Assembly: GCF_016616425.1 (NCBI RefSeq)
Contig: NZ_CP067101.1
Coordinates: 1,736,001-1,800,000 of the forward strand
Length of the DNA: 64,000 nucleotides
DNA from: Bradyrhizobium diazoefficiens
Lineage (GTDB): Bacteria > Pseudomonadota > Alphaproteobacteria > Rhizobiales > Xanthobacteraceae
Reading direction: 5' to 3'
Shown: one piece after another, positions 5,543 through 17,640 of the stretch
Layout of the letters: the number at the start of each line of letters is the position of its first letter
Position numbering within the stretch: the first letter of the stretch is position 1
Notes under the pieces: model-generated
Seen by the model: only the letters and a program-made list of their open reading frames with translations
Database searches by the model: none
What the model was told of the DNA's origin: nothing
Position numbers and translations under genes: made by a program

Positions 5543-6658
5543 TCAGGAAAAGTAGTACGCAAGCGCCAGAACGACGTAGACGCCGATGAGCAGCAGGCCC
5601 TCGAACCAGGTGGTCTCGGCATCCCTCGTGATGGCATTTACGATGAACGCAGTGCCAGCAATCGAGAACAGGTCGACGGGATTTTGGAAGACGAGGGTCA
5701 TCGGCTTGCCGATTACCCAGGAGAAAATGACGAGAAGCGGAGCGACAACCAACGCGACCTGGATCGCTGATCCGATGCAGAGCGTCATCACGAGACCCAT
5801 CCGGTCGCGCCGGGCAAACCAGACGGCTGCAAATATGTCCGAACTGGTGCCGACGAGCGCCAGCACGACGACGCCGAGAAACAGTGGTGTCACGCCCGTG
5901 GATTTGGCTGCCTCCGTCAGTGCGCCGGAGACGAATTCGCTCTGCAGGGCCGCTGCGCCAGTGCATGCCAGGAGCACGACGAGACAAACCGTCGCCGACC
6001 AGACCGGTTCAGCCGAAGCGTCCTCGTTGGCCGCAAAGACGTTCCGGTGGGTAATGAGTGTGAAGACAAGATTTCCTGAATAGAGAATCAGCAACACGAC
6101 GGACACGGCGAGGCTAAGCAGCTCGTCGGAAGCACTGACGTTATGGATGTGACGAATGCTGCGACCCGTGTAGTCGAAGACTGCGGGTAGAAGAAGAGCG
6201 ATCACGGACAGAACGAGCATGCTCGACAACAGCCCGGCGCGTGCTTGAGTAAAGCGTTGCCGCTCGCGATTGAGCCCGCCCGCGACGATGGCCAGTCCGA
6301 GTCCCAGCAAGCAGGTCGCAGCAATGGACCCGGTGATCTGGGCGTGGACGACATCCACCTGGCCGCGCGCGAGAACAAATAAGGCGAGAATGAGTTCGGC
6401 CAGGCTTCCCAGGCTGACCGTTAGGAGACCGCCTAAGGCTGCACCGGTATGGGTGGAAAGCTGGTCTGTTGCAACGCGGATCCACTCGGCGAGCACGGCT
6501 ATCGCAAGAACACCGGATCCGAAGATCCAGATGGGCGAAAGGTGAAAAACATACTCGCCCATCGGCGTCAGCAGAACGAACGCTAACGGCGCAATGCGCG
6601 CGAGGGCACCGTATCGCGAACGGACGTCCGTTCCTCTGGAGACGTTGGCCTTGGGCAA
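5543..6658 (-). CDS. CaCA/CAX-type cation:proton exchanger
   Basis: This 371-residue integral membrane protein with about eleven hydrophobic segments resembles Ca2+/H+ antiporters of the CAX branch, including the rhizobial 'y4hA'-type transporters. The first alpha repeat reads SLGSLAELILALFVLARGQ with VVHAQITGSI after it; the second reads LALVGTSSDIFAAVWFA. The usual signatures are GNATE and GNAAEH, so both acidic ion-binding motifs are altered (E kept in the first, D in place of E in the second). The first codon appears to be TTG with no clear ribosome-binding site, so the N-terminus is uncertain. It is a single-gene unit with no linked regulator. Substrate is inferred, not shown. Confidence 0.75.
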   Translation of the reverse strand: MPKANVSRGTDVRSRYGALARIAPLAFVLLTPMGEYVFHLSPIWIFGSGVLAIAVLAEWIRVATDQLSTHTGAALGGLLTVSLGSLAELILALFVLARGQVDVVHAQITGSIAATCLLGLGLAIVAGGLNRERQRFTQARAGLLSSMLVLSVIALLLPAVFDYTGRSIRHIHNVSASDELLSLAVSVVLLILYSGNLVFTLITHRNVFAANEDASAEPVWSATVCLVVLLACTGAAALQSEFVSGALTEAAKSTGVTPLFLGVVVLALVGTSSDIFAAVWFARRDRMGLVMTLCIGSAIQVALVVAPLLVIFSWVIGKPMTLVFQNPVDLFSIAGTAFIVNAITRDAETTWFEGLLLIGVYVVLALAYYFS

Positions 6659-7109
6659 GGTGGCGACTGGCTCCTGGCTGCCCGCAAAAGGCAGTCATTG
6701 GATTTGCAGCGGGGCACCCGACGGAACGCCGCCGACGGAGCGGCGGCTTCTGGGCACAAGGCTCCTCGCATTTGGTTCCGGGCAGTTTGCGATGATCAAC
6801 GAAGCAAGACGCGCAGCGTTCGCTGCGCACGGGGCTGATCTTGGTACGCAGCCGGACAAGACGAGGGCGGTGTGCCGCTCCAAACGAGTGCGCAACGTTG
6901 GCGGAAGGACCAAGTCCCGGCGTGTGGAGGCTTTTGCCCAATTTTGTCCGCCCGGATCTGCGCGGCCGTTCAAGACAGATCGCATGAGTGATGACTGTTT
7001 GTCGATTTCCTCGGCGCGGCACCGGACCATTTGTCGAGGGCACCTAGAACTCCTGGCATCGGAAGGGATTAAGGAATCAAAGGGCGGTCTTGTATCGTAG
7101 GAGCATGGA
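6659..7109. other. Intergenic, no gene recognised
   Basis: About 450 bases separate the start of the exchanger gene from the PRC-barrel gene, which are divergent. Open frames here lack recognisable domains. TAGGAG at about 7096-7101 is the ribosome-binding site of the PRC-barrel gene. No repeat of the families seen elsewhere is present. Confidence 0.5.
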
Positions 7110-7823
7110 ATGAGGGTCAAGAGCAGGATCGCCCTTGCAATTCTCGCCGGTACAATCTCGAGCTCCGTTCTGTGGAGTGCCGCATGGGCCGAGACTCAAG
7201 TGAAGGTTGCGACGGAACAATCAGCGCAATCCCAGCAATTCGCCACCACGGTGTATGATGGCTACCGTGCCTCGCGCCTGCTCGGGAGCGCGGTGTTCTC
7301 CTTGAAGGGCGAATATTTGGGAGCTGTTCGGAACGTGGTCATGGCGGACGACGGACAGATCGTTTCGTTGCTGGTTGAAGGATTCAGAACGAAGGACCAG
7401 CCGGAGTTCATCTCGCGAATTCCGTTCAAGCGGGTACTGCGGCCACTTCACGAAGGCGCCATCGTGGCCGACTTCTCCGACCTGAGGTCGCGAGAGTTCG
7501 GCCTCTTTGTTGATCCCGATCAGGCAGAAGCAGAGCCGCACGAGTTCACGATCTCGAAAATCATCGGAGACTATGCGCGGTTGCAGGCAGGACAAGGCTA
7601 CGGGTATGTCTCCGATCTGGTTTTTGACAGCGGCGGAAAGCTCGCGGCCGTCGTGATATCCCGCGAAGCGTCTGCCGGCGGAGGGACGTACGCCTTCCCT
7701 TACCCGGGCCAGACGGGGCGATGGAGCCCGAAGCTGAGCTATTATGGCCTGCCTTACGTCACGGTAGATCAAGCGAACAAAGCCGGCTTGCGGTTGGACA
7801 TGAAGGAGTTTCAGAAGTCGTGA
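7110..7823 (+). CDS. Exported PRC-barrel domain protein
   Basis: This 237-residue protein has a clear signal peptide (MRVKSRIALAILAGTISSSV, cleavage likely after AWA near residue 27). It carries a PRC-barrel fold around residues 55-110 (RLLGSAVFSLKGEYLGAVRN then IVSLLVEGF) and a second similar unit near 150-190 (YGYVSDLVFDSGGKLAAVVI). PRC-barrels are small beta-barrels found in photosynthetic H subunits, RimM and many envelope proteins of rhizobia. This one is presumably periplasmic, and its partner is unknown. The start follows TAGGAG with good spacing. It stands alone between non-coding stretches. Confidence 0.8.
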   Translation: MRVKSRIALAILAGTISSSVLWSAAWAETQVKVATEQSAQSQQFATTVYDGYRASRLLGSAVFSLKGEYLGAVRNVVMADDGQIVSLLVEGFRTKDQPEFISRIPFKRVLRPLHEGAIVADFSDLRSREFGLFVDPDQAEAEPHEFTISKIIGDYARLQAGQGYGYVSDLVFDSGGKLAAVVISREASAGGGTYAFPYPGQTGRWSPKLSYYGLPYVTVDQANKAGLRLDMKEFQKS

Positions 7824-8051
7824 AGAGCCACTGCTCCCGCAATGGAGGCCGACGTGCCTTCGCATGCACGCGCGGTAGCGAACTGACGCAGTCACGTTTG
7901 AGCGCAGAAAAAGTCCTCCCCTCCTCAATCTGCGTTTGAACGTGGCTGCACCAGAGGATCGAAGTTCATCGGACGAGACAACAGACATCGGAAAGCGGAC
8001 GTATCTACCTCTGCTCCGAAACAGTGCGTTGAGCGATATAGCGCTCCCCCG
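7824..8051. other. Intergenic, no gene recognised
   Basis: Together with the 69-base gene stump that follows, this forms the 300-base gap between the PRC-barrel gene and the SDR gene. I see no other coding or repeat signal in it. Confidence 0.4.
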
Positions 8052-8120
8052 CTACCAAATCCTACTCGCCAGATTCCAGGTCGTGACGTCCCATCCCGAG
8101 ATGTCGGCCATGAGATTGTT
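8052..8120 (-). pseudogene. 3' stump of a peptide ABC binding-protein gene
   Basis: Read on the minus strand, 22 codons and a TAG stop encode NNLMADISGWDVTTWNLA plus four residues. The intact peptide-binding protein at 19191-20978 ends NNLMVDMSGWDVTTWNLA, so 16 of 18 residues match, and 49 of 54 bases match at 8067-8120 versus 19209-19262. Nothing of the rest of the gene is present: the SDR gene begins four bases away. This is a gene end cut off by insertion or replacement of the neighbouring catabolic cluster. Confidence 0.78.
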
Positions 8121-8123
8121 CGA

Positions 8124-8858
8124 TCAGCCGGCGAGGAAGCCACCGTCAACTGCAACCACCGTGCCGGTCGCATATTGCGACGCCGGCATGCAGAGGAAGG
8201 CGACAGCACCGGAAACATCTTCCGGCTGTCCCCATCGCTTGAACGCAGTGCGATCGGCGATGCGCTGATAGTGTGCGCGATCGGTTCGGCCTGAGGCATT
8301 GATCGCGGTTTCGATATAGCCGGGCGCAACCGCATTGACGCGAATGCCGTGCTCGGCCCAAGCCAGGGCCAGCGCCTTGGTCAGCATCACGACGCCGCCC
8401 TTGCTGGCGCAATAGGCCGGAATTCGCGGCAATGCCAGCGTCGCATTCATCGAGGCGATGTTGACAATCGAGCCTTTGCTGTCGGCCAGCAGCGAACGGA
8501 ACGCCATGCAGGTCCGGAACGTGCCCGTGAGATTGACGTCGAGCACCTTCATGAAGATCTCGATCCCGTATTCCTTGTCGCGCGCCAGAATGCCAGCGCA
8601 ATTGATCAGCGCGTCCACGCGCTTGTGCTGCCTGGCGAACGAGGCGACGGCATCATCGTTCGTGACGTCGAGGGTCGCGAGCGAGAGCCCTGCGCGCGGC
8701 TTGAGCAGGGAACGCGCGAGATCGTCGTCATTGACGCCCGTCGCGGTCACCGTCGCGCCGAGATCGCAAAACTGGTTGCTGATCGCGGCGCCAATGTCGC
8801 CGGCACCGCCGATGACGACAGCATGGAAGCCGGGGGCGAGAGAAAAATTCGAATTCAT
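8124..8858 (-). CDS. SDR-family NAD(P)-dependent dehydrogenase
   Basis: This 244-residue classical short-chain dehydrogenase shows the cofactor loop GGAGDIGAA near residue 18, NCAG around 87, the catalytic Ser in IVNIASMNA and YCASK (YxxxK) near 150, and a family-typical ending [16 protein letters not shown]. It lies ten bases downstream of the LacI regulator on the same strand and so is probably co-transcribed with it. With the divergent sugar transporter, kinase and aldolase, it probably oxidises or reduces a sugar, polyol or aldehyde intermediate of the same pathway. The exact substrate cannot be read from sequence. Confidence 0.85.
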
Positions 8859-8868
8859 CGGGAGGATC

Positions 8869-9909
8869 TCACTTCAGGATCGTGGGAGGCGCGGCCGTCG
8901 ATTCTCGGACCACCAGTGAAAAGTCGATTTCGCGATGCTTGATGGTCTGTTCGCCCGCGAGGCTTCGCACCAGATATTCCCCGGCCAGCTGCCAGGTCTC
9001 GTCGGTCGGCACGTGAATGGTGGTCAGGCTCGGCCGCAGATGGCGGCTCCAATCGAGGTCGTCGAAGCCAACGACCGACAGATCGCGCGGCACCGAAAAA
9101 CCGCTGCGCTCGGCCTCGAGCAACACGCCATAAGCGATGACGTCATTGCCGCAGGCCACCGCGGTCGGACGGTTCTTGAGGTTCAACAGATAACGGGCCG
9201 CCTCGCGTGCGTCGTCCAGAGTATAGGGCACCTCGACATGCCATTCGGAGGCAAGTTCGAGACCATTCTCTGCAAGCGCGCGGCGAAAGCCGGCGACGCG
9301 CGCACTGGCACGATCGTTGTTGCGCTGGAGGGCCGAGACGATTCCGATCCGACGATGGCCAAGCTCGATGACATGCGCGGCCGCGCGATAGGCGGCGGCT
9401 TCGTTGTTCGTTCCGACGCAAGGGTAAGGCCGGTCCGGTTGATAGATCCCGACGTTGATGAACGGTACCGCATTGTCCGCGAGCAGCTTGCGCAGGCCTT
9501 CGTGATGGCAGTCGCCCCGCAGCACCAGGCCATCGACGCCGCGGCCGATCAGATTGCGCGCCTGTTGCAGCTCGACGTCGAGATCATATCCGCTCGTGGT
9601 GAGGAACAGCATGTAGCCCACCGACGAAAGATACTTTTGCAGCGAGGCGATGCCGCGCGCGAACATGGTGTTGTCGATCGTTGGCACGATTGCGCCGAGC
9701 GTACGCGACCGTCGCGACGACAGGATGCGAGCCGGCGCATGCGGGATGTAACCGACGGCTTCGATTGCCTGCGCGATGCGCGCGCGCAGCGAGGGGCTCA
9801 CCGCATCGGGATTGTTGAGTGCACGCGAGACGGACGCCGTCGACACGCCGGCGCGGGCCGCAACGGCGCGGATGCCCTGCTTCTCGGATCTGCCTGTCGG
9901 CATTGACAT
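8869..9909 (-). CDS. LacI-family transcriptional regulator
   Basis: The protein has an N-terminal LacI helix-turn-helix ([20 protein letters not shown] and hinge [19 protein letters not shown]) followed by a periplasmic-binding-protein-like sensor domain (ending [20 protein letters not shown]). I place the start at 9909 (MSMPTG...) or 9903. An upstream ATG at 9990 would add residues not seen in the family and would put the operator inside the gene. A perfect palindrome TGTAACGTTACA sits immediately before the start, and a second, imperfect site overlaps the promoter of the divergent transporter operon. It is therefore probably an autoregulated, substrate-released repressor of the 10-17 kb operon. 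Confidence 0.88.
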
Positions 9910-9910
9910 G

Positions 9911-9922
9911 TGTAACGTTACA
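9911..9922. promoter_or_regulatory. LacI-type operator, perfect palindrome
   Basis: TGTAACGTTACA is a perfect 12-base inverted repeat with a central CG, the form typical of LacI-family operators. It lies directly upstream of the regulator's start, consistent with autorepression. Confidence 0.7.
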
Positions 9923-9993
9923 TTTGTGGAGCGAGCCCCGCCTGGCAGCGGCAATGCCACAAAATGGCGCATGTTATGCGATTTGTCCATCGC

Positions 9994-10034
9994 TTGACAG
10001 GGCAGAGTTGATGCCTAGGATGTAACCGTTTTCA
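9994..10034 (+). promoter_or_regulatory. Promoter of the sugar operon with overlapping LacI-type operator
   Basis: TTGACA at 9994-9999 and TAGGAT at 10016-10021 form a sigma-70-like promoter with 16-base spacing. TGTAACCGTTTTCA at 10021-10034 is an imperfect inverted repeat (10 of 14 positions symmetric) sharing the TGTAAC half-site and central CG with the perfect palindrome at 9911. It covers the expected transcription start, so a bound repressor would block initiation. The binding-protein start follows at 10080 behind GGGAGGAGAG. Confidence 0.62.
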
Positions 10035-10079
10035 GAAGGATGCCGCCAGCTTAAAGCGGTCAGCCGGGAGGAGAGTTCA

Positions 10080-11381
10080 ATGAATGCCAGGATGCTCGCG
10101 ACGCACGTCGCGTTGCCGGTTCTCGCAATGGCCGCGGTCAGCGCGCAGGCGCACGGGGCCGATTTCGACTGGAAGAAGTTTCAGGGCAAGACCGTCACCT
10201 TTCTCGCCAACAACAATCCGGTGTCGCAGGCGCTGCTGACCTACAAGGCAGATTTCGAGAAACTGACCGGAATCACCCTGAAGGTCGACAGCTATCAGGA
10301 GCAGCAGATGCGCCAGCGTCTGGTCACGGTCATGAATGCGAACAGCGACGAAGTCGATGCGTTCATGACGCTGCCCTCGCGGGAGGGCGAGCAGTTTGCC
10401 GCCGCCGGCTGGTACGCCGATCTCACGGCGATGTCCAAGAACGAGGTCGCGAAGGAGTACGATCCGGCAGGTCTGAGCCAGGCCCTGCTGAAGGCGGCGA
10501 CCTTCAGCGGTAAGCTCACCAGCATGCCCATGAACATCGAAGGTCCGATTTTCTATTACCGCACCGACATCTTCAAGAAGTGCGGTCTCGAAGCGCCGAA
10601 GACCATCAAGGAGGTCGAAGCTGCCGCTGCAAAGATCAAGGTCTGCGACAGCGCGGTGACGCCGTTCGTCTCGCGCGGCCTCAAGCCTGCGGTCGCCTAC
10701 ACCTTCAGCAACATGCTGCACAATATCGGCGGCAGCTACATCGCGAACGGCAAATCGAACCTCTGCTCGGCCAAGGGCAAGGAAGCGCTCGACACCTATA
10801 GCCGGCTGCTGCGCGACTACGGACCGCCCGGCGTCGTCAACTACAGCTTCCAGCAGATTTCCGCGCTGTATCGCAGCGGCCGTGCCGCGATGTCGTTTGA
10901 GTCTTCGAACGAACTGCGCACGGTGATGGAGGGCGGCGCGCGGTTGAAGGACACCGCTCTGCTGCCGTTCCCGGCGGGGGAGGCCGGCCAGGTGCCGACC
11001 ACGATCGGCTGGGGCATGGCGGTGTCCTCGCACAGCAAGCAGCCGGATGCGGCCTGGTACTTCGTGCAATGGGCAACCAGTCCGGAGGTACAGAAGAAGA
11101 TGGCGCTGCAGGGGATCGCCCCGCCGCGGCCGTCCGTCGCCAACGACCCTGAATACCGCAAGTGGATCGACGAGGAGCCGGTCCGGAAGGAATGGCAGGC
11201 GGCGCTCGACGTGCTGGCCACGAAGGGCTCCTCCGAGGTCGGCTATCCCATCGTCGCCAACCCGCAATCGCGCGAGTTCATCGGGCAGGCGGTGCAGGAT
11301 CTGATCCTGAAACAGAAGAGCCTCGATCAGGCTTGCGCCGATGCCGACAAGGCGCTCGATGCGCTGATCGCGCAGAAGTAA
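10080..11381 (+). CDS. Carbohydrate ABC transporter substrate-binding protein
   Basis: This 433-residue protein has a signal peptide (about residues 1-24, cleavage near AHG-A) and then the fold of family-1 sugar-binding proteins, with KFQGKTVTFLANNNPVSQAL at the N-terminus and the conserved C-lobe stretch GWGMAVSSHSKQPDAAWYFV followed by QWATSPEVQKKM. It acts in the periplasm and delivers substrate to the two permeases encoded next. The GGGAGGAG ribosome-binding site at about 10066 fixes the start. It is the first gene of a seven-gene run with gaps of at most about 60 bases. Ligand is unknown; the downstream enzymes point to a ketose-forming or sulfonated sugar. Confidence 0.88.
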   Translation: MNARMLATHVALPVLAMAAVSAQAHGADFDWKKFQGKTVTFLANNNPVSQALLTYKADFEKLTGITLKVDSYQEQQMRQRLVTVMNANSDEVDAFMTLPSREGEQFAAAGWYADLTAMSKNEVAKEYDPAGLSQALLKAATFSGKLTSMPMNIEGPIFYYRTDIFKKCGLEAPKTIKEVEAAAAKIKVCDSAVTPFVSRGLKPAVAYTFSNMLHNIGGSYIANGKSNLCSAKGKEALDTYSRLLRDYGPPGVVNYSFQQISALYRSGRAAMSFESSNELRTVMEGGARLKDTALLPFPAGEAGQVPTTIGWGMAVSSHSKQPDAAWYFVQWATSPEVQKKMALQGIAPPRPSVANDPEYRKWIDEEPVRKEWQAALDVLATKGSSEVGYPIVANPQSREFIGQAVQDLILKQKSLDQACADADKALDALIAQK

Positions 11382-11443
11382 TGCCCGCGGCGCCGGCCGG
11401 CTTCGCGCTGGCCGGCACATCATTCTATCAAGGACACGGACGC

Positions 11444-12331
11444 ATGTCGGATACGGCTGCGACATTGACGCAGGACCGGCAGAAGCTGGAAATGTCGGCG
11501 CTCTCGGCGCCGGCCGTGATCTTCACGGTCGGGATGATCGCGTTTCCGGTCGTCTATACGATCTGGCTGGCCTTCCAGACCTTTTCCTCAACCGGCAAGC
11601 AATCCTTCGCCGGCCTCGCCAATTATTCGAAGCTGATCTCCGATGTTGAGTTCTGGCACGGGCTGTGGGTTACGATCGCGCTATACGTGTTGTCGCTGGT
11701 GCTGCAGCTCGTCTTCGGCATCTGGCTTGCGCTGGTGCTGTTTCACGCCAGGCGCCTGCCGGGCATCGTGCGCTCGCTGTTCATCTCGCCCTTCATGATG
11801 CCGCCGGTGGTCGCCGGCATGATGTGGCTGGTGATCCTCGATCCGTCGCTGGGTGCGGCCAATTATATCCTGCAATCGTTCGGCCTGCCGCCATCGGACT
11901 GGCTGGCCTCGCCGACCTGGGTCATTCCGACCGTTGCGCTGATCGATAGCTGGCAGTGGACGCCTTATGTCGCCCTGATTGTGCTGGGCGGCCTGCAATC
12001 CTTGCCTCCCAGCGTGTATGAAGCGGCTCAAATCGACGGCGCGTCTCCGTTCAAGACGTTCCAGCGCATTACGCTGCCGTTGTTGCTGCCGACCATCGTC
12101 ACCGCGGCGATCCTGCGCAGCGTCGATCTGCTGCGCTTCTTCGACATCATCTACATCACCACCCAGGGCGGCCCGGGCAACGCCTCGAACACCCTCAACA
12201 TCTATGGCTTTCGGGTCGGCTTCGAATTCTTCAACATCGGCTATGCCAGCGCCTTGATGCTGACCTTGACGGCGATCGTGTTCGGCGCCGTCCTCGCCTT
12301 CAACCGCCTGCGCGGCGCGGTGGCGTGGTGA
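11444..12331 (+). CDS. Sugar ABC transporter permease (MalF/UgpA type)
   Basis: This 295-residue inner-membrane protein has six predicted helices and the EAA loop of the binding-protein-dependent permeases (YEAAQIDGASPFKTFQRITL followed by PLLLPT). The ATG at 11444 is preceded by AAGGACACGG; longer frames enter the upstream gap. It pairs with the next permease and shares one ATPase, encoded three genes downstream. Confidence 0.87.
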   Translation: MSDTAATLTQDRQKLEMSALSAPAVIFTVGMIAFPVVYTIWLAFQTFSSTGKQSFAGLANYSKLISDVEFWHGLWVTIALYVLSLVLQLVFGIWLALVLFHARRLPGIVRSLFISPFMMPPVVAGMMWLVILDPSLGAANYILQSFGLPPSDWLASPTWVIPTVALIDSWQWTPYVALIVLGGLQSLPPSVYEAAQIDGASPFKTFQRITLPLLLPTIVTAAILRSVDLLRFFDIIYITTQGGPGNASNTLNIYGFRVGFEFFNIGYASALMLTLTAIVFGAVLAFNRLRGAVAW

Positions 12332-12335
12332 TGCC

Positions 12336-13163
12336 ATGAACGATGCCGCTAACACCGATCGCTGGATTCGCTGGCTCAACACAATGCAGCTCGTGCTCGC
12401 CGGCGTGCTGATCATGGCGCCGACGGTCTGGATGGTGCTGTCCTCGTTCAAGCCGTCTTTTGAAGTCACCGCCTATCCGCCGACGCTGATCTTCACGCCG
12501 ACGCTCGACAATTATGTCGAGCTGACGAGGACCACGCCGTTCCTGAGTTACGCGCTCAACAGCCTCATCGTCACCGTTGGCTCGACGGCACTCGGGCTGC
12601 TGTTTGGAATTCCTGCCGCTTTCGCCGTCTCCTGGACGCGCATTTCCTGGCCCGCGATCCTGACGCTTGCCGCGCGCATGGCACCCGGCACGCTGTTCCT
12701 GCTGCCCTGGTACGTCATGTTCCGGCAGGTCGGCATGATCGGCTCCTACACCGCGCTGATCCTCAGCCATGCCGTGATCACGCTGCCGATCGTGATCTGG
12801 GTTTTGCTGCCGTCTTTCGACGGCATTCCGCGCAGCGTGTTCGAGGCGGCGCAAGTCGATGGGTGCAGCGTCACGCGCATCCTCTGGCGCATCGCGCTGC
12901 CGCTGGTGGCGTCCGGCGTCGCCGTCGCGGCGATCCTCGCCTTCGTGTTCTCGTGGAACTACTTCCTGTTTGCGCTGGTGCTCTCCAACGGCGACACCAA
13001 GACGCTGATCGCGGCGGCCTTCAACTTCATCGGCGAAGGTTCGACGCAATGGGGCGCCATCATGGCGGCGGCGACGCTGATCGCATTGCCGCCGCTGGTG
13101 CTGGCCGCGCTGGTTCAGCGCTGGCTGGTGTCCGGACTGACGCTAGGCGCGGTGAAAGGCTAG
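12336..13163 (+). CDS. Sugar ABC transporter permease (MalG/UgpE type)
   Basis: The 275-residue partner permease starts four bases after the first permease ends. It has six membrane segments and an EAA motif (FEAAQVDGCSVTRILWRIAL with PLVASG). The N-terminal region WLNTMQLVLAGVLIMAPTVW is the first helix. It is typical in length and complete. Confidence 0.87.
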   Translation: MNDAANTDRWIRWLNTMQLVLAGVLIMAPTVWMVLSSFKPSFEVTAYPPTLIFTPTLDNYVELTRTTPFLSYALNSLIVTVGSTALGLLFGIPAAFAVSWTRISWPAILTLAARMAPGTLFLLPWYVMFRQVGMIGSYTALILSHAVITLPIVIWVLLPSFDGIPRSVFEAAQVDGCSVTRILWRIALPLVASGVAVAAILAFVFSWNYFLFALVLSNGDTKTLIAAAFNFIGEGSTQWGAIMAAATLIALPPLVLAALVQRWLVSGLTLGAVKG

Positions 13164-13170
13164 GCATCTG

Positions 13171-14175
13171 ATGAATCCATCCCTCCGTCCGAATGCGACC
13201 ATGCAAGCGGCGGTCTTCCACGGCGACGACCGCATCACCATCGAGCGTCTGGCGATGCCCGACGTCGGCACCGGCGAGGTGCTGGTCCGCGTCTCGCGCA
13301 CCGCGCTGTGCGGCTCGGATTTCAAGCTCTGGCACAAGGGCGCCGAATTCACCGCAGGCCATGAGATCTTCGGCGTCGTCGAGCAGCCCGGTCATCGCCT
13401 GCATGGCCGTCGCTGTGCCGTCTATATCCCCTTGCACTGCGACCATTGCGCTGCCTGCAGGCGCGGCGACACCCAGATGTGCCTGGAAGTCTCCAGCCTG
13501 ATCGGCTGGAACAGGCCGGGCGGCTATGCCGAATACGTGCCGGTGCCGGAAAACTGCCTGCTTCCGGTGCCTGACGACATCGAGGACAGCCTCGCGCCGC
13601 TGCTGCTCGACACCATCGGCACGTCGGGCCATGCCGTACGCTTCGTCAGCCGTGTGGTGCCGCCGAGCGAGGCTGGTCCGGTCCTCGTCATGGGCGCGGG
13701 ACCTGTCGGCCTCGGCGTCGTGCTTGCGCTCCGCGCGCTGGGTTACGACGACATCTACGTCGCCGACCCCAATGCCGCGCGCCTCGAGATCGCGCAGTCC
13801 TTCGGCGCGAAGGCGCATCCGGTCGGCGATGCCTCCAGGCGCTTCGCCCTCATCATGGAATGCTCCGGCGCGCATGCGGCGCGCAATCTCGGCATCGAGC
13901 TGGTGCTGCCGCGCGGCGCGCTGGTGCTGGTCGGCGAGAACGCCGCACCCTGGATCATCGAGGAAGGCAAGGTGTTCCGCCGCAAGGATTTTTACATGAT
14001 CCGGACCTTCTATTTTCCGGTCTCGGATTTCGAGCCGAATGTCGAGCTGCTGCGCAAGTACAAGGACGAATATCGCGTTCTCGTCGACGGCGAGTTCGGC
14101 CTGTCGGCGCTGCCCGAAAATTTCGCCCGCTTCGCCAAGGGCGAGCTGATCAAGCCCGTGCTGGCGCTGGACTGA
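13171..14175 (+). CDS. Zinc-dependent medium-chain dehydrogenase (polyol/L-idonate type)
   Basis: This 334-residue MDR enzyme retains the catalytic zinc ligands (C47 in ALCGSD, H64-E65 in AGHE) and the four structural-zinc cysteines (C90, C93, C96, C104 in CDHCAACRRGDTQMC). The Rossmann loop is VMGAGPVGLGVVLAL. This is the layout of sorbitol/L-idonate/threonine dehydrogenases that interconvert polyols or hydroxy sugars and ketoses with NAD(P). It sits between the permease and ATPase genes, so it belongs to the transporter operon. In context it would produce or remove the ketose used by the downstream kinase. Substrate is inferred only. Confidence 0.85.
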   Translation: MNPSLRPNATMQAAVFHGDDRITIERLAMPDVGTGEVLVRVSRTALCGSDFKLWHKGAEFTAGHEIFGVVEQPGHRLHGRRCAVYIPLHCDHCAACRRGDTQMCLEVSSLIGWNRPGGYAEYVPVPENCLLPVPDDIEDSLAPLLLDTIGTSGHAVRFVSRVVPPSEAGPVLVMGAGPVGLGVVLALRALGYDDIYVADPNAARLEIAQSFGAKAHPVGDASRRFALIMECSGAHAARNLGIELVLPRGALVLVGENAAPWIIEEGKVFRRKDFYMIRTFYFPVSDFEPNVELLRKYKDEYRVLVDGEFGLSALPENFARFAKGELIKPVLALD

Positions 14176-14181
14176 GCGATC

Positions 14182-15255
14182 ATGGCCTCGATCTCGATCC
14201 GCAACCTCGTCAAACGCTACGGCAATTTCACCGTGATACCGGACCTCAGCCTCGAGATCGCGGACCATGAATTCGTCGTGTTCGTCGGCCCGTCCGGCTG
14301 TGGCAAGTCGACCTTGCTGCGGATCATCGCCGGCCTCGAGCCGATCTCGTCGGGAGACCTCTACATCGGCGACAAACGCGTCAACGGCGTGCAGGCTGCC
14401 CGACGCGATATTGCGATGGTGTTCCAGGACTACGCGCTCTATCCGCACATGAAGGTCTACGACAACATGTCGTTTGCGCTGGAGCTGCGCGGGGTACCGA
14501 AGGCGGAGATCGATGCCCGCGTGAAGCGCGCGGCTGCGCTCTTGCACATCGAGCCCTACCTCGACCGCAAGCCGAAGGAGCTCTCCGGCGGGCAGCGGCA
14601 GCGTGTCGCCATGGGCCGCGCCATCGTGCGCAATCCGAAGGCATTCCTGTTTGACGAGCCGTTGTCCAATCTCGATGCCAAGCTGCGCGGGCAGGTGCGC
14701 GCCGAGATCAAGGCGCTGTCGCAGCAGCTGAAAACCACCATGGTGTTCGTCACCCACGACCAGATCGAGGCCATGACCATGGCTGACCGGATCGTGGTGC
14801 TCCAGAGCGGCACGATCCAGCAGTACGACACGCCGGAGACCGTCTACGAGCGGCCGGCCAACCAGTTCGTTGCCGGCTTCATCGGCTCGCCTGCCATGAA
14901 CTTCTTTCCGGTCGAATGGCGTGATGGGTGCGCAATCCTGTCGCAAGGCGGAACGGTGGTGCCGCTCGATGGCGAAACCGCGGGTCGCCTGCGGCAGGCT
15001 GGCAATGCCGTGCTTGGCATTCGTCCCGAACATTTTGCCGTGGCGGCGGGTGCCGTCGACGGCATCGCCATCAACGTCAAGCTGGTCGAGCCGCTCGGCT
15101 CGGATACGCTGATCCACTTCGATCTTGCTGACGCGTCTGCCATTGCGCGCGTCGATCCGGCACTGCGGCCGAAGGTCGGCGATCGCCTCAGTTTGCGTCC
15201 GCAGCCGGGCAAGACGCATCTGTTCGATGCTGGCAACGGGCAGGTTCTGCGGTGA
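14182..15255 (+). CDS. Sugar ABC transporter ATP-binding protein (MalK/UgpC type)
   Basis: This 357-residue ATPase has Walker A GPSGCGKST, signature LSGGQRQRVAMGRAI, Walker B FLFDEPLSNLDAKLR and the H-loop VTHDQIEAMTMADR. A C-terminal OB-type regulatory domain (about residues 240-357, with VLGIRPEHF) is as in MalK/UgpC. It energises the two permeases encoded upstream. Its TGA overlaps the kinase GTG start, indicating coupled translation. Confidence 0.92.
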   Translation: MASISIRNLVKRYGNFTVIPDLSLEIADHEFVVFVGPSGCGKSTLLRIIAGLEPISSGDLYIGDKRVNGVQAARRDIAMVFQDYALYPHMKVYDNMSFALELRGVPKAEIDARVKRAAALLHIEPYLDRKPKELSGGQRQRVAMGRAIVRNPKAFLFDEPLSNLDAKLRGQVRAEIKALSQQLKTTMVFVTHDQIEAMTMADRIVVLQSGTIQQYDTPETVYERPANQFVAGFIGSPAMNFFPVEWRDGCAILSQGGTVVPLDGETAGRLRQAGNAVLGIRPEHFAVAAGAVDGIAINVKLVEPLGSDTLIHFDLADASAIARVDPALRPKVGDRLSLRPQPGKTHLFDAGNGQVLR

Positions 15256-16211
15256 GCGCGCCGGACAACATTGCCGACCTTTCGGCGCTGGCGGACGTCG
15301 CGTCCAAGGCGAGCCCTGTGCATGTGATTTGCCTCGGCCTGTCCGCACTGGATCAAGTCTGGCGTGTCGACCGTCTGTTCGCCGGCCAAAGCGAGAAGAT
15401 CAAAGCCACCGGCTACGGCACGCTCGGCGGCGGCATGGCGGCCAATGCAAGTATCGCGGTGGCAAAGCTTGGCGCGTCCGTCGCATTCTGGGGGCGGGCA
15501 GGCGATGACGCCGCCGGCCACGAGATGAAATCGGCTTTCACCGCCGAAGGCGTCGACGTCGAGAACTTCCGGCTGTTTGCCGATGGCCGCTCGTCGGTTT
15601 CCGGGATCATCGTCGACAGCAACGGTGAGCGGCAGATCGTCAATTTCCGCGGCCTCTATCCTGAAGCCGCAGACTGGCTTCCGCTCGAGGCCGTCGCGCG
15701 CGCATCGTCCGTGCTGGCCGATCCGCGCTGGGTCGAGGGCGCCGCGACGCTGTTCCGGGAAGCGCGAGCGGACGGCATTCCCACGGTGCTCGACGGCGAC
15801 GTGGCCGACGCTGAGGTGTTCGAGCGGCTGCTGCCGCTGACCGACCACGCCATCTTCTCCGAGCCGGCGCTCGCAGGCTTTGCTGGCTCAGCCGACGATC
15901 AGTCCCTCGCAGCTCTCGTGCGCTTCGGCTGCCGCGTCATCGCCGTCACGCGCGGCGAGGCGGGCGTGAGCTGGCGCGAGAATGGCGAGCTGCACCGGCA
16001 GGCCGCCTACGCCGTCGAGGTCGTCGACACCACGGGCGCGGGCGACGTCTTCCACGGCGCCTATGCGCTGGCGCTCGGCGCCGGCCTCGACGTGCGGGCT
16101 GCGATGGCGTTCTCGGCGGCGACGGCCGCGATGAAATGCCGCCACGCCGGCGGCCGCAACGGAATCCCCGATATCAACGAGTGTCTTGCATTCATGAGGA
16201 CGAAGCCATGA
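15252..16211 (+). CDS. PfkB-family sugar kinase, YihV-like (possible sulfofructose kinase)
   Basis: This 319-residue ribokinase-type enzyme has the GG-containing N-terminal signature (GYGTLGGGMAANASIAVAKL) and the C-terminal anion-hole/catalytic-base signature VDTTGAGDVFHGAYALAL. From memory it aligns closely with E. coli YihV, the 6-deoxy-6-sulfofructose kinase of sulfoglycolysis, including VLADPRW, TVLDGDV, DHAIFSEP and the GGRNGIPD ending. The positions matching YihV Lys27, Asn109 and Arg138 (reported sulfonate contacts) are K49, N131 and R159 here. GTG start overlaps the ATPase stop (GTGA), and the stop overlaps the aldolase start (ATGA). It could alternatively phosphorylate tagatose or another ketose. 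Confidence 0.85.
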   Translation: MSAPDNIADLSALADVASKASPVHVICLGLSALDQVWRVDRLFAGQSEKIKATGYGTLGGGMAANASIAVAKLGASVAFWGRAGDDAAGHEMKSAFTAEGVDVENFRLFADGRSSVSGIIVDSNGERQIVNFRGLYPEAADWLPLEAVARASSVLADPRWVEGAATLFREARADGIPTVLDGDVADAEVFERLLPLTDHAIFSEPALAGFAGSADDQSLAALVRFGCRVIAVTRGEAGVSWRENGELHRQAAYAVEVVDTTGAGDVFHGAYALALGAGLDVRAAMAFSAATAAMKCRHAGGRNGIPDINECLAFMRTKP

Positions 16212-17245
16212 GAACGATTGGAAAGAACCGCGGCCTGGCACGGCTTGCTGACGCGGATGGCCACTTTCGCATGGTCGCGCTGGATCAGCGGCCGCCCTTG
16301 TTCGACGCCATCGCGAAAGCGAAAGGCATCACGCGGGAGCAGGTCGAGTATTCCGACGTCACGGCCGCAAAGCGTCTTCTCGTGGAGAATCTCGCTCCGC
16401 ATTGCAGCTCGATGCTGTTCGACCCGAACTTTGCCGTGCCCGCCGCGATCGACCTGCTGCCGCCGCGCTGCGGCCTGATCATGACGCTGGAGGAGCATCG
16501 GGTCGAGGAGACCGCCGGTGGCCGCAAGTCGCGCGCGATCACCAATTGGAGCGTCGAGAAAATCCGCGCCATGGGCGGCGATGCCGTCAAGGTGCTGGCC
16601 TGGTATCGGCCGGACGCCGATGCCGCGGTGAACGAGCATCAGAAGCGATTCGTCCGCGAGATCGGCGAGGACTGCGCCCGCCATGACATCCCTTACGTGC
16701 TCGAGCTGCTGGTCTATCCGTTCCTCGGCAGCGCCAACCACACCGCCGACTACGTGGAATCGCCGGGCAAGCTGCCCGGCCTCGTCATCGACAGCGTGCG
16801 CGAATTCGCCAAGCCGGAATATTGCGTCGATCTGCTCAAGCTGGAGAGCCCGATCGCGGCCAATAGCCTGCCAGCCCGAGACGGCAGTGCGGAAGCCAAG
16901 GCCGCGCAGAAGGAATTCGATGCAATCGGCGACATCTGCCGCGAGCGGAGCATTCCCTGGGTGCTGCTGTCGGGCGGCGCCGCGCCCGAAAAATTCGAGC
17001 AGGTGCTCGACTATTCCTATGCCGCGGGTGCGAGCGGCTTCCTCGCCGGCCGCACCATCTGGCTCGACGCCATCCTGAAGAATTTCCCGGACCGCGCAGC
17101 CGTGTCGGCCAGCCTGCGCAAGGATGGTCTCGGCGTGCTGGAGCGCCTCAACAAACTGACCACGGCCAAGGGCACTCCGTGGAAGGCTCGATTTCCGGTG
17201 TTCACCGACATCAAGCAAGAGGGTGACTTCGCACGCGCCTATTGA
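16208..17245 (+). CDS. Class I ketose-phosphate aldolase (LacD/YihT family)
   Basis: This 345-residue aldolase resembles tagatose-1,6-bisphosphate aldolase LacD and sulfofructosephosphate aldolase YihT. Visible motifs are HFRMVALDQRPPLFDAI, the Schiff-base lysine K211 in DLLKLESP, and IPWVLLSGGAAPEKF with AGASGFLAGRTIW. It would cleave the kinase product into dihydroxyacetone phosphate and an aldehyde (glyceraldehyde phosphate for LacD, sulfolactaldehyde for YihT). The ATG overlaps the kinase stop. It is longer than YihT (about 290 residues) and closer in length to LacD (about 326). As last gene of the operon, it supports a kinase-plus-aldolase ketose pathway. Confidence 0.85.
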   Translation: MRTIGKNRGLARLADADGHFRMVALDQRPPLFDAIAKAKGITREQVEYSDVTAAKRLLVENLAPHCSSMLFDPNFAVPAAIDLLPPRCGLIMTLEEHRVEETAGGRKSRAITNWSVEKIRAMGGDAVKVLAWYRPDADAAVNEHQKRFVREIGEDCARHDIPYVLELLVYPFLGSANHTADYVESPGKLPGLVIDSVREFAKPEYCVDLLKLESPIAANSLPARDGSAEAKAAQKEFDAIGDICRERSIPWVLLSGGAAPEKFEQVLDYSYAAGASGFLAGRTIWLDAILKNFPDRAAVSASLRKDGLGVLERLNKLTTAKGTPWKARFPVFTDIKQEGDFARAY

Positions 17246-17640
17246 GATGGCGGCGGTTCCGCAAGGGCTGGGGATGAAGTCTGGTCGAACTTTCCTGCTC
17301 CAGGCGCGGAGCATCGTGCCCGGCTCGTCAATGGCTAAAGTTGCAGACTGGATGCCGTAATCCTTTGAAGACGGGAACCATACTCCAGGGGGGCGAGGGG
17401 TCCTGTCCCTCTCCCGCTACCGTCAATTTCAAAACTCCTTCCGATATCAGTCGCGCATGGCTTGGGCCCAAGCCGTGGCGGCAAGCTGTCGCGTCGCCAG
17501 GCGTGCGCGATTAGGAACTCCCGCGCACGCTCGAAGCTTGAATCCGCGGGTCAGCGTCGCCGCCGATCGCTGGCCTGCACGGCCCCGCCTCCCCAGCCCC
17601 CCATACCGCCCAGGGTGGGGCCGTGCGTCGTGAGCAGGAG
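17246..17640. other. Intergenic, no gene recognised
   Basis: About 395 bases follow the aldolase gene. A short inverted repeat GAGGG/CCCTC around 17395-17415 resembles a tRNA T-arm, but the loop and the partner acceptor strand do not fit. No coding signal is convincing. Confidence 0.4.

Follow-up and report, generated by a model that had tools for sequence, protein, structure and literature searches.

A conserved LacI-controlled operon of Bradyrhizobium diazoefficiens with a YihV-like kinase, a LacD-type aldolase and no YihS-like isomerase, possibly for a sulfosugar

Gene content and regulation

We analyzed a 64,000-nucleotide stretch of the Bradyrhizobium diazoefficiens genome (7.14 Mb, one contig; NZ_CP067101.1, positions 1,736,001 to 1,800,000), here called the window, which at 8124–17245 carries nine genes that may form a catabolic operon for a sulfonated sugar. 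They are arranged in two divergent units. The minus-strand unit comprises lacI and an SDR-family dehydrogenase gene, the plus-strand unit seven genes in the order substrate-binding protein (SBP), permease, permease, zinc dehydrogenase, ATPase, kinase and aldolase, of which the last three overlap successively by 4 bp. A preliminary description of this DNA had reported a zinc dehydrogenase, an SDR and a sugar ABC importer under LacI control, next to a kinase coupled to a class I aldolase; all of these are found at the locus, and the coupling agrees with the overlap of the two genes. The nearest relatives of the encoded proteins are from Bradyrhizobium.

8124..8858, minus strand: SDR-family dehydrogenase of 244 aa, next gene downstream of lacI (PF13561/PF00106)
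8869..9990, minus strand: LacI-family regulator (PF00356/PF13377; 68–70% to the operon LacI of relatives)
9910..9923, no strand: LacI-type operator 1, GTGTAACGTTACAT (core 8-mer in 10 of 12 diverse loci)
10020..10035, no strand: LacI-type operator 2, degenerate (3 mismatches to ATGTAACCGGTTACAT; chance expectation in the window 0.04)
10080..11381, plus strand: SBP of an ABC importer (PF01547; 67–68% to the operon SBPs of rhizobial relatives)
11411..12331, plus strand: ABC permease A, start approximate (PF00528; 80–83% to relatives)
12336..13163, plus strand: ABC permease B (PF00528; 81–83% to relatives)
13171..14175, plus strand: zinc-dependent medium-chain dehydrogenase (PF08240/PF00107; 78–80% to relatives)
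14182..15255, plus strand: UgpC/MalK-type ABC ATPase (NF008653, 478 bits, cut-off 432)
15252..16211, plus strand: PfkB kinase with K49/N131/R159 (closest solved relative YihV)
16208..17245, plus strand: class I LacD-type aldolase (NF009498, 389 bits, cut-off 184; 8tnf, 495 bits)
17264..17333, plus strand: remnant of an MR/MLE (enolase-superfamily) gene (74% over 23 aa; 77–91% DNA identity to relatives)

The true start of lacI is likely near 9909; annotated orthologues have 339–342 aa. Both operator sites lie between the divergent units. Operator 1 differs by one mismatch from the pattern ATGTAACGTTACAT, for which the chance expectation in the window is 0.03. When at most one mismatch was allowed, each of the seven genomes searched had a single such site, and in the six genomes behind the named loci this site was just ahead of lacI and the SBP gene. 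The reversed pattern, used as a control, matched once in the genome of the window and not at all in the other six. Because operator 1 is found once per genome and in this position, the unit looks like a one-promoter regulon.

Conservation of the operon

Searching named genomes with the sequences of four aldolases, we obtained 62 loci, 58 of which are at least 17 kb long. Operator 1 was present, with at most one mismatch, in 58 of the 62. In every one of the 58 long loci we found LacI, the SBP, both permeases, the zinc dehydrogenase, the ATPase, the kinase and the aldolase, and in 56 of them also the SDR, whose gene is placed within the operon in Variovorax. The SDR of the window is 70% identical to those of the Rhizobium, Neorhizobium and Shinella operons, and its translation has an S136-Y149-K153 motif. 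The operon occurs in Shinella, Rhizobium, Neorhizobium, Sinorhizobium, Brucella endophytica, Phyllobacterium, Hyphomicrobium and Variovorax, and the aldolase occurs in five of the ten listed genomes of the genus of the window, its own included.

The preliminary description had noted that genes resembling YihS, YihQ or YihU are lacking, and the scan bears this out: neither these three nor YihT had a match of at least 35% identity in the open reading frames (ORFs) of the 62 loci, other isomerase families not being part of this comparison. The combination of two dehydrogenases without a YihS-like isomerase is thus a real, conserved architecture. Elsewhere in the genome of the window there is a single PF07221 protein, which shares 21% identity with YihS across 223 aa; SqvD-type isomerases were not part of this search.

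The zinc dehydrogenase resembles threonine and polyol dehydrogenases. At E ≤1e-40 it matched 11 plasmid records, and since these are the same 11 that rank highest for the kinase and the aldolase, it looks dedicated to the pathway of the operon. In a class-wide search of 385 genomes, in which up to five candidates were scored for each genome, only the genome of the window had a match at 1e-60. In comparisons of the SBP with solved proteins, a sorbitol-binding protein was the second-best match and SmoF ranked fourth at 66 bits.

Kinase and aldolase

Residues 23–315 of the kinase align with the YihV structure 7ag6 (216 bits, E 7.5e-63), the best of the 59 solved sequences matched, and K49, N131 and R159 fall on YihV K27, N109 and R138, which we take to be its sulfonate-binding residues. 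This part of the preliminary description therefore stands. From 70 loci, among which L002 and L023 represent one and the same plasmid, 60 kinases passed the filter for ORF, coverage and identity. One of these, the Cereibacter kinase, is no orthologue; the remaining 59 all keep the triad. At the corresponding positions, the Cereibacter kinase has K-L-R, a Devosia kinase K-G-S and one Rhizobium kinase K-P-R. Public annotation already labels some operon kinases as sulfofructose kinase.

A finding of the triad in kinases of ordinary ketoses had been named as grounds for giving up the sulfosugar reading, and here the outcome is divided. None of the ten other PfkB rows of the window's genome (nine distinct proteins, two of them poorly aligned) has the complete triad, but it is retained in kinases of Zymomonas and Nitratireductor. 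The Nitratireductor kinase (L010, 9995–10888) lies beside isomerase-family and Gfo/Idh genes, with no aldolase annotated.

The aldolase passes the broad tagatose-diphosphate aldolase subfamily model, as listed above, and falls below the lacD equivalog TIGR01232 (131 bits, cut-off 432). Its nearest solved relative, 8tnf, is named only as a DUF2090 protein, and a literature search on it returned only unrelated papers. YihT is a weak relative, at 25% identity and 54–57 bits against 495 bits for 8tnf. We therefore rejected the YihT-type identity that had been proposed for this gene and regard the aldolase as LacD-like. When it is aligned with YihT and a LacD-like protein of Devosia, D26, Q27, K128, E166, K211 and R282 are among the invariant residues; K211 is presumably the Schiff-base position. 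A second group of LacD-type aldolases, approximately 50% identical, is present in many Hyphomicrobiales genomes (e.g. G041:C13:3517-4473).

Sulfur-linked genes in related loci

In Shinella, Rhizobium, Neorhizobium, Sinorhizobium, Brucella endophytica and Phyllobacterium, the aldolase gene is followed by genes for an aldehyde dehydrogenase (ALDH), the SDR, an MR/MLE protein and a TauE-family protein, with the ALDH missing from this extension in Rhizobium CC-CFT758, Rhizobium NFR07 and Neorhizobium. The TauE-family gene (PF01925) belongs to the same operon in seven of seven loci of this rhizobial type. The Shinella operon's ALDH matches 8c54, which we take to be RlGabD, with 909 bits and the next solved protein with 667; it is thus closer to 8c54 than to succinate-semialdehyde dehydrogenases. 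The landmarks given for RlGabD in PMC10599462 (W-N-F, Arg171, Arg289, Cys295) match the 8c54 sequence at an offset of one. According to that paper, RlGabD oxidises sulfolactaldehyde (SLA), with an approximately 30-fold lower activity on glyceraldehyde 3-phosphate. An ALDH of this kind is present in six of the 58 long loci.

Sulfatase genes are located in or beside the operon in loci L069, L076, L021, L002 and L004, some together with a formylglycine-generating enzyme. In Variovorax (L006, 11001–13689), a TauE-like gene (35%) and an IlvD/Edd-type gene (L-arabinonate dehydratase model) converge on the end of the operon.

In a related operon on a Cereibacter sphaeroides plasmid (L005, 279–9894), a YihV-like kinase is encoded together with a YihT-like aldolase (47%). 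The permeases of this operon are 57–61% identical to those of the window and its ALDH 53% to that of Shinella; it has a related ABC importer, a different zinc dehydrogenase, a tartrate-dehydrogenase-like gene and no annotated isomerase.

A lost tenth gene

About 70 bp behind the aldolase (17264–17333) match the 5' part of an MR/MLE gene, the rest of which is gone; DNA identity was 77–91% to 27 of the 55 loci compared. At least 44 of the 70 loci have an MR/MLE gene in the 3 kb behind the aldolase, a count that leaves aside L008 and L018, which also carry it but were missed by the choice of ORF. Among the 48 loci titled Bradyrhizobium, it is the very next gene after the aldolase in 32. By this comparison, the window operon is one that has lost a tenth gene. 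The KxK, D, E, E and H positions, which we assume to be the motif of the mandelate-racemase group, are conserved in ten members of the MR/MLE family.

The genome of the window has a complete copy, 69% identical, at 3,539 kb, where an NMT1-type ABC importer and a GMC oxidoreductase are encoded next to it. This set (L097, 3,530–3,550 kb of that genome; locus positions 6264–12434) also includes a GntR regulator, and a nearly identical MR/MLE set on a Bradyrhizobium plasmid (L095) adjoins an arylsulfatase and a formylglycine-generating enzyme.

To describe the context of the family, we drew 18 other alphaproteobacterial MR/MLE loci from the 385 genomes searched, several of them cut short and most of their neighbours unnamed. 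In one (L101, 3722–10056), the MR/MLE gene stands in a row with a SuyB-like UxaA gene and its small partner, a TauE-like gene (37%) and SsuABC-type genes including an SsuA-family binding protein, which suggests a use of C3-sulfonates. The other 17, as far as they extend, had no TauE match, which argues against a general link. L100, L113 and L117 have a GMC oxidoreductase 59–60% identical to the one beside the complete copy in the window's genome, and L100 and L113 have sulfatase-like genes as well. A search of viral contigs found no MR/MLE gene.

SuyAB was considered as a desulfonating step and rejected. A SuyA-like query (95 aa, L017) gave one match in the genome of the window, of 45% over 49 aa in a 513-aa frame. 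The SuyB-like query from L101, searched against the genomes of nine relatives, matched at 74% and 64% in Hyphomicrobium (G1008, the genome of L069) and at 32–36% in seven, with no match in one. Both queries were named from their neighbours; in NCBIfam they had only weak matches to galactarate dehydratase.

Candidate pathways

From the computed gene content, conservation, operator, homologies and triad, we infer that the operon is under LacI control and serves the breakdown of an anionic hexose or hexitol. The substrate is most likely sulfonated at C6 and would be degraded in an Embden-Meyerhof-Parnas (EMP) manner to dihydroxyacetone phosphate (DHAP) and SLA; we consider this slightly more likely than not. 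A C6-sulfonated substrate is favoured because the type of the kinase, the type of the ALDH and TauE all point there, and the strongest support comes from relatives rather than from the window. Further points in favour are the triad's absence from the other PfkB rows of this genome, the 11 plasmid records shared by zinc dehydrogenase, kinase and aldolase, the lack of a YihS-like gene beside the loci, the kinase-aldolase pair of the Cereibacter operon and the make-up of the Arthrobacter clusters described below. The ABC importer would take up a C6-sulfonated hexose or hexitol, and the zinc dehydrogenase and the SDR, in an order and direction that we presume, would convert it to a 6-deoxy-6-sulfoketose, for example by reducing an aldose to the alditol and oxidising that to the ketose, or in one step if the alditol itself is imported. 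Phosphorylation of the sulfoketose at C1 would fall to the YihV-like kinase, and the LacD-type aldolase would split the product into DHAP and SLA. In the rhizobial relatives, the RlGabD-type dehydrogenase may then oxidise SLA and the TauE-family protein may export a sulfonate or sulfite. The sulfosugar reading of the preliminary description thus gains from the RlGabD-type ALDH and the TauE-family gene of relatives and from the 59 conserved triads, but loses the YihT-like aldolase on which it had partly been built.

Several observations weigh against this proposal. The Nitratireductor kinase keeps the triad and adjoins no annotated sulfur gene, so that the triad alone is not proof of sulfosugar use. 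Moreover, the operon kinases form a clade of their own (98/98), apart from YihV and Zymomonas (100/100), in a tree of 20 rows that leaves the branching order among clades unresolved. The SBP is as close to several other sugar-binding proteins as it is to SmoF. The SLA-binding arginines of RlGabD are also found in succinate-semialdehyde dehydrogenase, and outside the rhizobial type, none of 51 long loci has a TauE-family (TSUP) gene and one of 51 has the ALDH. The window operon itself has no linked SLA dehydrogenase; the best ALDHs of its genome are 58% and 55% identical to that of Shinella, approximately the level of an ordinary succinate-semialdehyde dehydrogenase, and no sulfur gene was seen among the few of their neighbours that we examined. 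Sulfatase genes adjoin four of the 58 long loci, in at least three genera, which points to sulfate esters. Finally, PMC12421959 reports for a comparable kinase-aldolase pair of Paracoccus wurundjeri that sulfofucose did not induce it, and that SLA was not oxidised by the "threonine dehydrogenase" of the cluster.

A rival reading is an ordinary operon for a hexitol or rare ketose (galactitol, altritol, tagatose or similar), in which the dehydrogenases produce the ketose, the kinase acts at C1 and the aldolase yields DHAP and glyceraldehyde. The LacD-type aldolase, the likeness of the zinc dehydrogenase to threonine and polyol dehydrogenases, the rank of the sorbitol-binding protein and a window operon without a sulfur gene are all consistent with this, but a YihV-like kinase with a conserved triad and the RlGabD-type ALDH and TauE of sister operons are not, and we regard it as improbable, though it keeps an appreciable chance for the Bradyrhizobium version of the operon. 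The same steps acting on an O-sulfated sugar, e.g. a hexose 6-sulfate, would give glyceraldehyde 3-sulfate for an intracellular sulfatase. Here the four sulfatase-adjoined loci count in favour, two of them also with a formylglycine-generating enzyme, as does a further sulfatase in Neorhizobium that, judged by eye, apparently has no signal peptide. The other 54 loci had no sulfatase match at the thresholds used, however, and the operon ALDH is closest to an SLA dehydrogenase. We think an O-sulfate substrate unlikely, but a rival to be taken seriously.

A slightly smaller chance still falls to an ordinary sulfo-EMP pathway that receives its ketose from an unlinked isomerase while both dehydrogenases act elsewhere, e.g. 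on SLA. The PF07221 protein of the window's genome could be such an isomerase, but for its low identity to YihS, and the same idea was put forward for the P. wurundjeri kinase-aldolase pair (PMC12421959). The LacI operator speaks against it: being found once per genome, it leaves no second site from which an unlinked isomerase could be co-regulated.

Within the favoured pathway for a C6-sulfonated substrate, the MR/MLE protein might act on sulfolactate; because this is a 2-hydroxy acid whose C3 carries a leaving group, lyase or racemase chemistry is possible. As a sulfolyase, it would abstract the alpha-proton, with loss of sulfite from C3 and formation of pyruvate; alternatively, it would be a sulfolactate racemase. 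That a dehydrogenase-fed, isomerase-free sulfo-EMP pathway is extended in this way seems doubtful to us; if true, it would be an entry of the enolase superfamily into C3-sulfonate metabolism. If the operon degrades a sulfosugar at all, it would open a route by which soil and root-nodule bacteria draw on an organosulfur pool, as well as an isomerase-free way to a sulfoketose, and the gene signature of zinc dehydrogenase, kinase and LacD-type aldolase would help to find users of unidentified sulfosugars.

Comparison with known systems

Our literature search, mostly not at the level of full texts, found no published description of the operon. It resembles the sulfo-EMP systems of E. coli (yih) and Arthrobacter in its YihV-related PfkB kinase and in a class I aldolase that would yield DHAP. 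The Arthrobacter clusters, as described in PMC8873060, have ABC importers, YihV and an SLA dehydrogenase, with TauE in one of two strains; this variant, with ABC importer, SlaB and TauE, is matched in the relatives of the operon by the SLA-dehydrogenase-type ALDH and TauE. In contrast to sulfo-EMP, the operon lacks YihS-, YihQ- and YihU-like genes, has a LacD-type instead of a YihT aldolase, and has the zinc dehydrogenase and the SDR in addition; the SLA reductase or dehydrogenase by which a sulfo-EMP cluster is recognized is absent from the window operon.

The aldolase shares with the tagatose-1,6-bisphosphate aldolase LacD the subfamily model and the invariant residues, yet it is far below the lacD equivalog cut-off and is partnered with a YihV-like kinase. 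By published description rather than by sequence, the same gene types are united in cluster 2 of P. wurundjeri, which serves sulfofucose and includes a PfkB and PF01791 pair, a "threonine dehydrogenase", an SDR-type dehydrogenase and an ABC importer. In PMC12421959, this kinase-aldolase pair is discussed for sulfotagatose with an unlinked isomerase, its proteins not being induced, and sulfofucose is handled by Entner-Doudoroff enzymes, unlike the EMP-type cleavage that we propose for the window operon.

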